The notes beneath the pieces are model-generated. The model was given only the letters and a program-made list of their open reading frames with translations, was not told the origin of the DNA and made no database searches. The translations under genes and the position numbers were made by a program. A stretch of DNA of 64,000 nt from Hyphomicrobiales bacterium (GTDB lineage: Bacteria; Pseudomonadota; Alphaproteobacteria; Parvibaculales; Parvibaculaceae), in the NCBI GenBank assembly GCA_016124805.1, contig WGND01000005.1:1-64000 (forward strand). Direction: 5' to 3'. The number at the start of each line of letters is the position of its first letter. The stretch's first letter is position 1. Below are positions 55,820-62,178 of the stretch, in pieces.

Positions 55820-58333
55820 ATGTCCCTCGTGGATACGTCAACGAAGATGAATGATCGCAAGCCGGTTGCCCTTTGGCAGCTGGTAATGCTTCCGCTCATC
55901 TCGCTGGCCGCGACGCTTTTGGCCTTTACGGCAGCCGAAAAGACGGTGCATCAGGCCGCCGAACAGCATTTTGAATATCGCCAGTCACAGATCGTCGACG
56001 CCATCAGTCGCCGCATGCGGACTTATGAGTCGGTGCTGCGCGGAACGCTGTCCTTCTTCAAGGTGGATGGTCAGGTGAGCCGGGATGAATGGAACACCTA
56101 TGTTACCAGTCTCCAGATCGTCGACTCCTTTCCCGGCATTCAGGCGCTGGGTTATGCGCAGGTTGTGCCGCCATCCAAGAAAGATGCCTTTGAGCGGGCC
56201 GTGCGTCAGGAGGGTTTCAGGGACTTCCATATCAAACCGCAAACGCCACGCGATTTTTATACCGCCATCAAATTCATCTCGCCGATGGATGAACGAAACT
56301 TGCGTGCCTTTGGCTATGACATGTGGTCTGAAAAGACCCGTCGGGACGCCATGAGCCGCGCGACGGATACCGGCAAGACGATGCTGAGCGGGCGCGTGAT
56401 GCTGGTGCAGGAAAATGGCGAGGATGTGCAGCACGGCATTCTGATGTATCTGCCTTTTTATGGTGCCGGCCTGAAGACGCCGACCACCATCGAAGCGCGC
56501 CGCGCAAAACTGCAGGGCTTCGTCTATAGCGCTTTCCGCATGAAGGATCTGATGCGTGGCATTCTGGAAAGCGACCTGAATGACATGCATGTGCGGATTT
56601 CAGCCATTGATCAGGACGGCAAAGCCAATCTTCTCTTTGAAACCGACAATGAACCCAAGACCCGACATTTTCTGGCGCATGCGCCGCTGACCAATTCCCA
56701 GCAGATCAATATGTATGGCCAGACCTGGAGTCTGAACTTCGAAGGTTTCTCTGGCTTCTATCCTGATCTGCCGCGACACAATCCCAGCGTCGTCGTGCTT
56801 TTCTGCGGCTTGATCATTACCGCGCTGCTGGCGCTTCTGAGCCATGCCACGCAGACAACGGATCGTCGCGCGTCGAAACTCGCCGACAAAATGACGCGTG
56901 ATCTCGATGCCCGCGCCAATGAGCTTGCAAATGTTGTGAGCGAATTGAATCTCGAAATCGAACGCCGCGAGGCTGTTGAGGCATCACAGAAACAGCTTGA
57001 AGAACGCCTGCGCAAACAGGCAACGACAGATTATCTGACCGGGCTTTCAAATCGTGCCGTCTTTAATGATGCCTTGAAGGTGCAGGAAAAATTGAGCGCC
57101 ACGCAGGATATTTCCTGTGGCGTGTTGCTGCTCGACCTCGACCGCTTCAAACACGTCAATGACACGATGGGTCATTTCACCGGCGACCGCGTGCTCTGTG
57201 TGGTGGCCGAACGCCTGCGTGCCATTATTCACCCGCCGCATATTCTCGTGCGTCAGGGCGGTGACGAATTTGCCATCCTGTTGCGTGGTGCCGTCACACC
57301 GGCTGCGGCCATGCGCATCAGCGAAAGCTGTATCTCCGCGCTGCTTGAGCCGATTGATATTGATGGCAAGACGGTCAAATGCCAGACCAGCATTGGTGTC
57401 GCGCTGCATCGAGATGGTGTCTGCGACACATCCAAGCTTCTCTCGCGGGCCGACATGGCGCTCTATCAGTCCAAGGCGGCAGGCCGCGGCTGCTACAAGA
57501 TTTTTGACAACGAGCTTGAGGAAAGCTTGAACGAGCGCAATCAGCTCGAGGCGGCCCTTCAGGGCGCCGTGCTGCGCAACGAGCTTGAGCTTTATTATCA
57601 GCCCAAAATCAAAAGCCATACCGGCGAGATCGCGGGTTATGAAGCCTTGCTGCGCTGGAAACATCCGACACTGGGCATGGTGCCGCCCGACCGCTTCATT
57701 CCGCTGGCCGAGGAAACCACACTCATCAATGAAATTGGCGATCTGGTGATCGACAGGGCTTGTGCACAGATTGCGAAATGGAAGCAGCAGGGGCAGGCCA
57801 AACCTGTGGCCGTCAACCTGTCGCCAAGCCAGTTCAGCCAGCGCGATCTTGTCAAGCGCATCAAGGTTGCCATGACCCGCCACAAGGTCGAAGCGAGCCT
57901 GCTTGAAATCGAGATCACGGAAAATGTTCTGATCACGGATTTTGAGGAAGCCGTGGAGCAGCTGCGCAAGCTGCACATGCTGGGTCTGCGCATTTCCATT
58001 GACGATTTCGGCACGGGCTTCTCATCGCTTGCCTATCTGCACAGGCTGGATGTGGATGTGCTGAAGATCGACCGCTCTTTCGTGAGCAGTCTTGATACGA
58101 GCCAGTCGCGGTCGATTGTTGAATCGATCCTCGGCCTTGCCCGCAACCTGCGCCTTGAAGTGGTGGCGGAAGGCGTGGAAACGGTCGAGCAGGCCCGCTT
58201 CCTGCGTGCCCATGGTTGCGAATTGATGCAGGGCTATCTGTTCAGCCCGGCGCTGCCGATCCATGATCTTGAGGAATGGATCATCGAGCATGAAAAGCAG
58301 CCGCCTGGTTTTGCCGAACTCAAAGGCATATAA
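55820..58333 (+). CDS. CHASE-GGDEF-EAL cyclic-di-GMP signalling protein
   Basis: An 837-residue membrane sensor that may make and break cyclic di-GMP. A first helix (about residues 18-40) precedes a periplasmic CHASE domain (FPGIQALGYAQVVPP; RNLRAFGYDMWSEKTRRDAM), a second helix near 330-350, and a coiled coil. The GGDEF domain has the intact motif RQGGDEFAILL at residues 480-484; the place of the RxxD inhibitory site holds HPPH. The EAL domain keeps YEALLRWKHP (608-610), NLSPSQF, EIEITENVLI, IDDFGTGFSSL, and VAEGVETVEQ. Both active sites look intact. It ends 6 bases before the convergent ABC-F stop. Confidence 0.95.
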   Translation: MSLVDTSTKMNDRKPVALWQLVMLPLISLAATLLAFTAAEKTVHQAAEQHFEYRQSQIVDAISRRMRTYESVLRGTLSFFKVDGQVSRDEWNTYVTSLQIVDSFPGIQALGYAQVVPPSKKDAFERAVRQEGFRDFHIKPQTPRDFYTAIKFISPMDERNLRAFGYDMWSEKTRRDAMSRATDTGKTMLSGRVMLVQENGEDVQHGILMYLPFYGAGLKTPTTIEARRAKLQGFVYSAFRMKDLMRGILESDLNDMHVRISAIDQDGKANLLFETDNEPKTRHFLAHAPLTNSQQINMYGQTWSLNFEGFSGFYPDLPRHNPSVVVLFCGLIITALLALLSHATQTTDRRASKLADKMTRDLDARANELANVVSELNLEIERREAVEASQKQLEERLRKQATTDYLTGLSNRAVFNDALKVQEKLSATQDISCGVLLLDLDRFKHVNDTMGHFTGDRVLCVVAERLRAIIHPPHILVRQGGDEFAILLRGAVTPAAAMRISESCISALLEPIDIDGKTVKCQTSIGVALHRDGVCDTSKLLSRADMALYQSKAAGRGCYKIFDNELEESLNERNQLEAALQGAVLRNELELYYQPKIKSHTGEIAGYEALLRWKHPTLGMVPPDRFIPLAEETTLINEIGDLVIDRACAQIAKWKQQGQAKPVAVNLSPSQFSQRDLVKRIKVAMTRHKVEASLLEIEITENVLITDFEEAVEQLRKLHMLGLRISIDDFGTGFSSLAYLHRLDVDVLKIDRSFVSSLDTSQSRSIVESILGLARNLRLEVVAEGVETVEQARFLRAHGCELMQGYLFSPALPIHDLEEWIIEHEKQPPGFAELKGI

Positions 58334-60349: not shown

Positions 60350-60772
60350 ATGGCTCTCGAGCGCACTTTTTCGATCATCAAACCGGACGCAACGCGCCGG
60401 AATCTCACCGGCAAGATCATCGACCGCTTTGAAAGCAATGGTCTGCGGATCGTTGCCTCCAAGCGTATCCACATGTCGAAGGCACAGGCTGAAGGCTTCT
60501 ATGCCGTTCACAAGGAACGTCCCTTCTTCAATGATCTGGTCTCCTTCATGATTTCCGGCCCCGTCGTGGTGCAGGTTCTCGAAGGCGAAAATGCTGTTCT
60601 GAAGAACCGCGAAATCATGGGCGCGACCAATCCGGAAAATGCCGAAGCCGGCACGATCCGCAAGGATTTTGCCGAGTCGATCGAGGCCAATTCGGTCCAT
60701 GGCTCGGATGCGCCCGAGACGGCTGCTGAAGAAATCAAATATTTCTTCAAGGACGAAGAGATCGTCGGCTGA
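60350..60772 (+). CDS. ndk: Nucleoside-diphosphate kinase
   Basis: Ndk transfers the gamma phosphate between nucleoside triphosphates and diphosphates through a phosphohistidine. The 140-residue protein has [20 protein letters not shown] at the start, [20 protein letters not shown], and the active-site His117 in [18 protein letters not shown]. The size is normal. It ends at a strong terminator and is monocistronic. Confidence 0.98.
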
Positions 60773-60795: not shown

Positions 60796-60823
60796 AAGCC
60801 CTGCCGGATTGGCAGGGCTTTTT
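60796..60823 (+). terminator. Rho-independent terminator after ndk
   Basis: AAGCCCTGCC (60796-60805) pairs perfectly with GGCAGGGCTT (60811-60820) around GGATT, followed by TTT. It lies 24 bases after the ndk stop. Confidence 0.92.
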
Positions 60824-60872: not shown

Positions 60873-61649
60873 ATGACCCTTGCCCGCCTGCCCAAACTCA
60901 TCCGCTGGTATTATGAAGGCATGTCGGTCTCCGCGCAGCGCTTCCGCTATGGGCTGCTGATCTTCGACATCACGACCATTCTTTTCATTGTCGCCTCGTC
61001 ATTCATGCCGCGCACGCCACTCATCGAATGGGTCGATGCGGTAATCGGCGTGCTGATCCTGATTGATTTTGTCGCCCGTTTCATCATCGCGCGCCATCGC
61101 TGGATGGGGCTCCTGCATCCCACAAGCATCGCCGACATCATTGTGATCGGCTCCTTCCTCGCGCCGGTTGTGGGCGAGGGGCTGGGCTTCCTGCGGGTGC
61201 TGCGCACGCTGCGGCTGCTGCGCACCTATCGCACGCTGTCACGCCTGAGGCAGGATTTCCGCTTCTTCCGCCAGAATGAAGATGTGATCGTGGCGGGCAT
61301 CAATCTGGGTGTCTTCATTTTCATCATGACCGGGCTCGTCTATGAGACCCAGCACCGGATCAATGACAGCATCGGCAATTATGCCGACGCCCTCTATTTC
61401 ACGGTGACGACGCTGACGACAACCGGCTTTGGCGACATCACCCTGCCGGGCACGGCGGGGCGGCTGCTGTCGGTGGGCATCATGATTTTCGGCGTGACAC
61501 TGTTTCTGCGGCTGGCGCAGGTTCTCTTCCGCCCGCCCAAGATCGCCTATGAATGTCTCGAATGCGGGCTCAACCGCCATGACCCCGACGCCGTCCATTG
61601 CAAGCATTGCGGGGCGCTGGTTCATATCACGACCGAAGGCTGGAGCTAG
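60873..61649 (+). CDS. Voltage-gated-type potassium channel with C-terminal zinc ribbon
   Basis: A 258-residue six-helix cation channel. S1-S3 are hydrophobic (LLIFDITTILFIVASSFM; VIGVLILIDFVARFIIA; ADIIVIGSFLAP). S4 carries regularly spaced arginines, RVLRTLRLLRTYRTLSRLR. The pore has selectivity filter TLTTTGFGDI with GFG at residues 185-187, a potassium-type filter. After S6 comes a short C4 zinc ribbon with Cys228, Cys231, Cys243 and Cys246 (ECLECGLNRHDPDAVHCKHC). No RCK or cyclic-nucleotide domain is present. A cytoplasmic metal-sensing or assembly role for the ribbon is inference. Confidence 0.9.
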   Translation: MTLARLPKLIRWYYEGMSVSAQRFRYGLLIFDITTILFIVASSFMPRTPLIEWVDAVIGVLILIDFVARFIIARHRWMGLLHPTSIADIIVIGSFLAPVVGEGLGFLRVLRTLRLLRTYRTLSRLRQDFRFFRQNEDVIVAGINLGVFIFIMTGLVYETQHRINDSIGNYADALYFTVTTLTTTGFGDITLPGTAGRLLSVGIMIFGVTLFLRLAQVLFRPPKIAYECLECGLNRHDPDAVHCKHCGALVHITTEGWS

Positions 61650-61650
61650 A

Positions 61651-62178
61651 TCAGCTGAGGATCGCCTTGCGCAGGCTTGTGATCCCGGCCTGCAGCATGT
61701 CGGCGAGTTCGGCGTCTGCCGCAATGCCGCCTTCGGGAAGGGTGCGACCAGGCAAGGGCAATGTGACGCTTGCCTCATCAACAACATGAGCCGACATGAC
61801 GGTCAAAATCTCGGTCAGCGAGGCAATGGCATGGGTGCCGCGCGGCGAAGCATTGAACAGGGCGACCGGCTTGTCCACCAGCTCGCCGCTGCCGACCAGC
61901 CAGTCCAGCGCATTCTTCAACACGCCCGGCACGCCATGGGCATATTCGGGCGTGGAGAAAATGACGCCATCGGCCTCATTCATCTGCGCACGAAATTCTT
62001 GAACAGCAGCAGGGGTTTGCCCTGAGTCGTCGATGTCGGGATTGAAGTGCGGCAACTGCCCGATGAGATCCGAGATGAGGATGACCGTGCCCTGCGGCGC
62101 GACCTCATGTAACGCATGAAGCAGCGCATTGTTGGATGAGGCCATCCGCAAGCTACCTGATAGGGCCAGAATATTCAT
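61651..62178 (-). CDS. NADPH-dependent FMN reductase
   Basis: A 175-residue flavodoxin-like reductase of the FMN_red family (as chromate or quinone reductases and SsuE). The FMN phosphate loop is LALSGSLRMASSNNALLHAL, the isoalloxazine region FSTPEYAHGVPGVLKNALDW, and NASPRGTHAIASL follows. The natural acceptor cannot be told. It converges on the channel gene with one base between the stops and is divergent from the ICMT-like gene. Confidence 0.92.
   Translation of the reverse strand: MNILALSGSLRMASSNNALLHALHEVAPQGTVILISDLIGQLPHFNPDIDDSGQTPAAVQEFRAQMNEADGVIFSTPEYAHGVPGVLKNALDWLVGSGELVDKPVALFNASPRGTHAIASLTEILTVMSAHVVDEASVTLPLPGRTLPEGGIAADAELADMLQAGITSLRKAILS

Follow-up and report, generated by a model that had tools for sequence, protein, structure and literature searches.

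The window analysed here, a 64,000-nucleotide stretch of contig WGND01000005.1, contains a gene that raises a simple question: is a potassium channel of the voltage-gated (Kv) type joined to a C-terminal zinc ribbon, and what would so small a tail do for the channel? Accounts of K+ channels in prokaryotes mostly concern channels with RCK (PMC3510474) or cNMP-binding domains, or channels that have no regulatory domain. The features of the locus are as follows.

60350..60772, + strand: upstream neighbour ORF, presumably nucleoside diphosphate kinase-like (NDK-like) by its sequence
60798-60823: hairpin of 21 nt plus T5 between the NDK-like ORF and the channel, seen by eye and absent from the pattern-scan list
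60873..61649, + strand: channel gene, an intact ORF of 258 aa plus stop, with six transmembrane helices and a C-terminal C4 ribbon
60927..61169, + strand: voltage-sensor helices S1-S3 (residues 19-42, 49-72 and 83-99 of the AlphaFold2 model)
61194..61232, + strand: S4 arginine ladder R108, R111, R114, R117, R120 (from the sequence)
61416..61436, + strand: K+ selectivity filter TTTGFGD, T182-D188 (from the sequence)
61449..61529, + strand: S6 helix, residues 193-219 (AlphaFold2 model)
61554..61613, + strand: C4 ribbon C228-G247, C-x2-C-x11-C-x2-C (motif, conservation and model)
61651..62178, - strand: downstream convergent ORF, presumably NADPH-dependent FMN reductase-like

The channel part

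The channel ATG is preceded by GGAG five bases 5′ (by eye). The protein matched Pfam Ion_trans with 57 bits (cut-off 25) and Ion_trans_2 with 49.2 bits (cut-off 22.5), and no RCK/TrkA_N or cNMP-binding family was found among the eight Pfam families listed at E up to 1. By this domain criterion it is not an RCK- or cNMP-regulated channel, and only 39 residues follow S6 in the AlphaFold2 model. NCBIfam NF040645, which describes a hyperpolarization-activated K channel, scored 62.8 bits, below the required 300. The claim of the earlier note that a C4 ribbon stands where RCK or cNMP domains usually sit was thus borne out.

The S4 segment reads FLRVLRTLRLLRTYRTLSRLR, with an arginine at every third residue, and S2 and S3 supply acidic partners, which together make up the sequence pattern of a Kv channel. 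The filter contains the K+ channel signature T-x-G-[YF]-G. Charges of this kind in S4, S2 and S3 predict a voltage sensor and a TTTGFGD-type filter predicts K+ selectivity, and on the strength of its filter the window protein is probably K+-selective. The Pfam matches, R108-R120 and TTTGFGD collectively confirm what had been read from the arginine ladder and filter, namely a Kv-type channel.

The AlphaFold2 monomer, built from an alignment of 46 sequences, has a mean pLDDT of 89.5 and a pTM of 0.79, and its three S1-S3 helices are followed by helices at residues 105-128, 136-160, 170-181 and 193-219. The sequence matches of the protein were to KCNQ, KvAP and BK, and the fold matches shown for the model were to Kv, KCNQ, Slo and plant K+ channels, with a VIA match to Slo2.2 at Z 16.4 (rmsd 6.5 Å, 239 residues). 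KvAP and bacterial Kv channels share with the window protein the S1-S6 layout, the S4 arginines and a GFG/GYG filter. The sequence matches to this group (1orq, 6uwm; Lmo2059/KvLm pore 4h33) reached E 2.3e-7 for 1orq and 7.1e-8 for Lmo2059, but these two end at window residues 213 and 211, short of the ribbon. Furthermore, no solved structure covering the window ribbon was found among the best 60 of 265 matches, all of which stop by S6.

The same genome carries two more K+-channel-like genes (G000:C14 209459-209821 and G000:C16 94478-94705), one of which (L002) is without a Pfam domain besides the channel, while the tail of the other (L003) is longer and, by eye, resembles a cNMP-binding domain. 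Elsewhere in the window, positions 55820-58333 (+) encode a protein of 837 aa, probably a cyclic-di-GMP enzyme, in which motifs resembling GGDEF and EAL and a sensor-like N-terminus can be made out by eye. A phage origin of the channel gene was considered and rejected, since none of 50,697 phage records matched at E 1e-5.

Conservation of the ribbon and decay of the S4 ladder

The window ribbon reads C228-L-E-C-GLNRHDPDAVH-C-K-H-C246-G and begins eight residues after the end of the S6 helix (219), with C228 as its first cysteine. We call it a zinc ribbon on the grounds of its motif, its conservation and the model; the C4 motif suggests that zinc is bound, and the six helices would place the ribbon on the cytoplasmic side. 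The Pfam ribbon families scored below their curated cut-offs on the window protein (Zn_ribbon_3, 15.9 against 27 bits), as did Zn_ribbon_3 on the window tail alone (18.3 bits, cut-off 27). In a scan of 28 tails with E up to 0.1, Zn_ribbon_3 matched all 28, at best with 1.5e-6. Residues 221-250 of the AlphaFold2 model form short strands, with pLDDT block means of 87, 89 and 92. A model of the tail on its own is weaker (pLDDT 78.7, pTM 0.50), and its fold matches are weak, with Foldseek E values of 0.8 or worse and a best VIA match at Z 3.0 (rmsd 6.5 Å, 38 residues).

Conservation was counted over 134 distinct proteins of the alphaproteobacterial family, after nine genes fetched twice had been merged. 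We found C228, C231, C243 and C246, together with L233, H236, D239, H242 and K244, to be invariant in 134/134, and A240 to be present in 133/134. For the ORFs of L139-L167 and L208, a C4 motif within the last 80 residues had been required for entry into this enlarged set; without that rule the C4 motif is present in 29/29 of L139-L167 and was also seen in L208, and the four cysteines occur in 113/113 distinct full-length relatives chosen without any cysteine rule. A pattern search recovered the ribbon in 119/120 relatives, the sole miss (L057) being a 152-aa fragment that had been cut too far in, where the ribbon is present, and which was excluded from the counts. Absence of the ribbon from orthologues had been named beforehand as the refuting point, and the orthologues keep all four cysteines throughout. 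A chance ORF or chance cysteines are ruled out by the same 134/134 conservation, and the invariance of the non-cysteine residues suggests that the surface of the ribbon matters beyond the holding of a metal.

In the 113 relatives, each at least 230 aa long, no other segment is as well conserved as the ribbon, where the commonest residue has a mean share of 0.82, compared with 0.785 for the pore, 0.781 for S6, 0.734 for S4 and 0.557 for S2. In four pairs of genes, synonymous change exceeded amino-acid change in all four regions tested, and residues 220-250 gave pN 0.18-0.20 against pS 0.67-0.90, consistent with purifying selection. Among near relatives, residues 220-250, hinge included, vary more than pore plus S6 (pN 0.18-0.20 vs 0.10-0.11).

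The filter reads TTTGFGD in 128 and TTTGYGD in 6 of the 134 relatives, and column counts for the S1-S3 charges gave D65 as D/E in 134/134, R69 in 134/134 and D88 in 133/134. The S4 ladder is looser. An arginine is found at positions 108, 111, 114, 117 and 120 in 134, 133, 120, 69 and 23 of the 134, respectively, R or K occurs at 108, 111 and 114 together in 119/134 and at two of these three in 15/134, and all five charges are retained by only 14/134. The complete ladder of the window protein is thus atypical of the family. The 15 relatives short of one of the first three charges have an unchanged ribbon and filter. One of these 15, the pSymB protein of S. meliloti 1021 (L208 2812-3609), has a decayed ladder, its S4 reading NFAFLRVMRIWAIGKSPLLL, and retains TTTGFGD and CPQCGLQRHDTDAVHCKACG. 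Loci L161-L167 likewise show a decayed S4 ladder with filter and ribbon intact. On the M. extorquens AM1 megaplasmid (L209 3007-3784) the channel gene is split over two frames, which reflects either a frameshifted copy or a sequencing error.

The partly decayed S4 of some relatives and the AM1 copy in two frames could speak for an ORF that arose by chance, or for a channel that is decayed or lacks selectivity, in place of a working voltage-gated K+ channel. We give this reading almost no credence, given that the window ORF is intact, that T-T-T-G-[FY]-G-D is found in 134/134 and that the gene is under purifying selection.

Distribution of ribbon-tailed channels

The nearest named relatives of the window protein are from Parvibaculum MAGs. 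Across 41 genomes (its own and 40 relatives), 13 matches, own included, were found at E ≤5.6e-51, the next match standing at 2.7e-11, a gap that sets the full-length relatives apart from all other matches. Within the genus the channel is patchy, present in 10/25 genomes, own included, some of the 25 being incomplete. Within the class, 35/385 genomes match at 1e-20, and 34/38 match rows start at or before residue 13 and end at or after residue 248, the other four being pieces in two genomes. A sample of 398 genomes of the phylum gave 42 matches in 41 genomes at ≥278 bits and one fragment at 211 bits, the remaining listed matches being at ≤122 bits. One of the 41 matching genomes (G720) lies outside the class; its copy (G720:C11 330265-331020, L149) is a full family member at 375 bits from another class of the same phylum and may be a lateral transfer. 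Where present, annotations of the family are 'potassium channel family protein', 'ion transporter' or 'ion channel'. Members of the window's own family, with match rows reaching residues 255-258, occur in Rhodobacter sp. CZR27, Methylobacterium, Sulfitobacter, Bosea and S. meliloti; Rhodobacter sp. CZR27, Sulfitobacter and Bosea are assigned by their match rows, and filter and ribbon were seen in the sequences of S. meliloti, with its decayed S4, and of M. extorquens AM1, with its frameshifted copy.

Next to this family stands a second tier of matches in the phylum sample (73-122 bits), and a C4 ribbon ends all of the 20 loci that we chose by hand from a longer list. For the third tier, 20 loci were hand-chosen from a longer list because their matches stopped before the ribbon; there we found a C4 ribbon in 2, a single CxxC end knuckle in 6 and neither in 12. 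The ribbons fall into two types. Fifteen second-tier loci and L189 from the third tier are of what we term the gamma type, where the spacing is x11 and the H236 position is a histidine in 16/16. The other five second-tier loci and L204 have x10 spacing and no histidine at that place. These six (L179-L181, L183, L184, L204) form one lineage outside the class, in which YCPxCG is preceded by EF or something like it. L191, a gamma-type channel, has lost its ribbon.

A ribbon with the same spacing was also present in 6/6 homologues from named organisms, namely P. aeruginosa, K. pneumoniae, Deinococcus, Bacteroides, Persicobacter and Acetoanaerobium, and the H236-place histidine is kept in all six, which span four phyla. 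These loci (H41, H43, H44, H46, H49 and H51) were chosen from 25 records, 12 of them listed, and phyla other than Pseudomonadota were sampled from plasmid records only. Five of the six are annotated, in every case as 'ion transporter'. The proteins of P. aeruginosa (WP_003083179.1), K. pneumoniae (WP_002910080.1) and Bacteroides (WP_055279155.1) resemble the window protein in combining a 6TM-type channel with C-x2-C-x11-C-x2-C and a histidine in the same place, but they differ in their filter (TVGYG or TVGFG) and in the residues at the H242 and K244 positions, which vary. A ribbon special to its own genome was therefore rejected, the tail being found in class relatives, second-tier loci and named homologues, and the layout is not the exception for which the earlier note took it.

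Next we consider whether these tails share one origin. The gamma-type protein L168 aligns over its full length, ribbon included, with the profile of the window family (probability 99.7, E 1.1e-26). For L168, too, none of the best 60 of 248 solved matches covers the ribbon, although two end at residue 258, two residues into it. A quick tree built on the membrane part alone showed two separate clades, one with the 25 rows of the alpha family and one with the 23 rows of the remaining ribbon channels, a ribbonless row among them, and the membrane-part trees require 3 ribbon changes; a single joint ribbon clade was not rejected by the AU test (p 0.261). L195, L002 and L003 had been dropped before the AU-test tree and L196, with no ORF by the script rule, from the quick tree, while the three named proteins with accessions stand outside the tree, their type being represented by L168-L187. 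Because spacing and histidine are identical, common descent of the tail is likely.

The Kv-type channels L188, L194, L197, L205, L206 and L207 have a longer, helical-looking tail with a single CxxC(G/H) knuckle at its end, and form one clade (95/92). With half a ribbon per subunit, a metal site could lie between subunits.

Possible roles of the ribbon

We propose, with a probability of about one half, that the window gene encodes a homotetrameric, K+-selective channel of the Kv/KvAP type with a ribbon cap stapled by structural zinc, which would act in cis on assembly and on S6 coupling. Each ribbon would permanently hold one structural Zn2+ eight residues below S6, and since only these residues separate the end of S6 from the first cysteine, the ribbons should sit under the gate. 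The four ribbons would pack on one another, on the S4-S5 linkers, or on both, as a very small cytoplasmic cap that fixes the tetramer and couples the movement of S6 to the other parts of the channel. The AlphaFold2 model is monomeric, and the ribbon-ribbon and ribbon-linker contacts are predictions, as are the tetramer and the function of the cap. Because S4 decays while the ribbon stays, the role of the ribbon probably lies with the pore or the tetramer and not with the sensing of voltage itself. Counting against a cap are the weak lone-tail model and fold matches, the patchy presence of the channel, the survival of L191 after the loss of its ribbon, and the greater variation of residues 220-250 than of pore and S6 among near relatives.

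Alternatively, the ribbon might aid folding or stability only and take no part in gating or assembly. Since L191 lost its ribbon, a tail-less channel can persist, in keeping with such a passive role; we nevertheless consider the idea quite improbable, with the ribbon the most conserved segment over 113 relatives and its non-cysteine residues invariant.

The ribbon might instead dock in trans, localising or regulating the channel by attaching to another protein, to a nucleic acid or to the membrane. Its invariant surface residues would suit this, and so would the likenesses of the tail, whose lone model weakly resembles the protein-binding RanBP2/NZF fingers, and whose nearest solved-sequence profile match is the RPB12/RPABC4 ribbon (E 3.7e-4, 23 bits), with a second knuckle DAVxCKxCG in common. 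However, any small C4 knuckle may match binding fingers, and RPB12 is an RNA polymerase subunit with two residues more between its knuckles in the alignment. A partner would also have to be as widespread as the ribbon, which recurs in other phyla. No conserved neighbour gene or operon partner was found by crude ORF-and-BLAST clustering of 80 neighbourhood loci, the best 80 of at least 555 and so weighted towards close relatives; the neighbour family seen most often, presumably ABC-F-like, occurs in 8/80. Because no neighbour family exceeds 8/80 loci, the ribbon probably acts within the channel, and docking appears a poor prospect.

A further reading, close to the zinc or redox gating first suggested for the window protein, makes the ribbon a sensor, in which zinc loss, cysteine oxidation or histidine protonation alters the cap and opens or shuts the pore. 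In 93/134 relatives there is no cysteine outside the ribbon, which is then the only possible thiol switch; H236 and H242 are invariant, the H236 position is a histidine in 16/16 gamma-type and 6/6 named ribbons, and the ribbon outlasts the S4 charges. Against it, C4 ribbons generally bind zinc tightly enough for it to be structural, the H236-place histidine is missing from the six ribbons of another lineage, the 80 loci share no neighbour gene widely, and Kv3.1 structures with and without zinc are reported to be nearly alike overall, with only minor differences (PMC9287412). Sensing is conceivable, if doubtful. We favour a structural cap because ribbons of this kind as a rule keep their zinc permanently, and zinc bound tightly for structure is by default more likely than zinc or redox gating. 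The bolder extension, a widespread prokaryotic Kv-type class gated by its C-terminal ribbon through zinc loss, thiol oxidation or protonation, which would replace voltage where S4 has decayed, strikes us as unlikely.

Zinc sites in the cytoplasmic domains of K+ channels are known and offer precedents. According to the same Kv3.1 study, the T1 domain holds zinc on cytoplasmic Cys/His residues beneath the S4-S5/S6 gate, and this interfacial zinc is involved in, and not required for, Zn-mediated tetramerisation (PMC9287412). That domain is N-terminal with its site between subunits (C104/C105/H77), whereas the window ribbon is C-terminal and lies within one chain. The bacterial K+ channel GsuK has a zinc-finger-like site in its cytoplasmic domain (RCK2) whose function is said to be unclear (PMC3510474), but GsuK is a 2TM channel with two RCK domains and a His2Cys2 site. 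Among the open-licence papers listed, no title or opening of an abstract describes a ribbon-tailed K+ channel, and a description may exist in the subscription literature; the nearest paper, on the SHOCT domain, refers to ion channels at one point and to zinc ribbons at another (PMC3581485). The statement that no characterised bacterial channel has this layout thus agrees with the solved matches and open-licence papers listed, and has to be tempered by the zinc sites of Kv3.1 and GsuK.

Taken together, the window gene is an ordinary member of a widespread and apparently undescribed channel architecture, in which the ribbon sits on proteins annotated merely as 'ion transporter' or 'potassium channel family protein'. 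With about 20 residues, nine of them invariant in 134/134, and similar tails in four phyla, the ribbon cap would rank as a very small channel module on the cytoplasmic side. Should the cap control gating, these channels would offer a minimal system for the coupling of a metal site to S6, and the natural variants with decayed S4 would separate control by voltage from control by the ribbon. Should the ribbon have no more than a structural role, the family would remain a compact and seemingly undescribed type of Kv channel.
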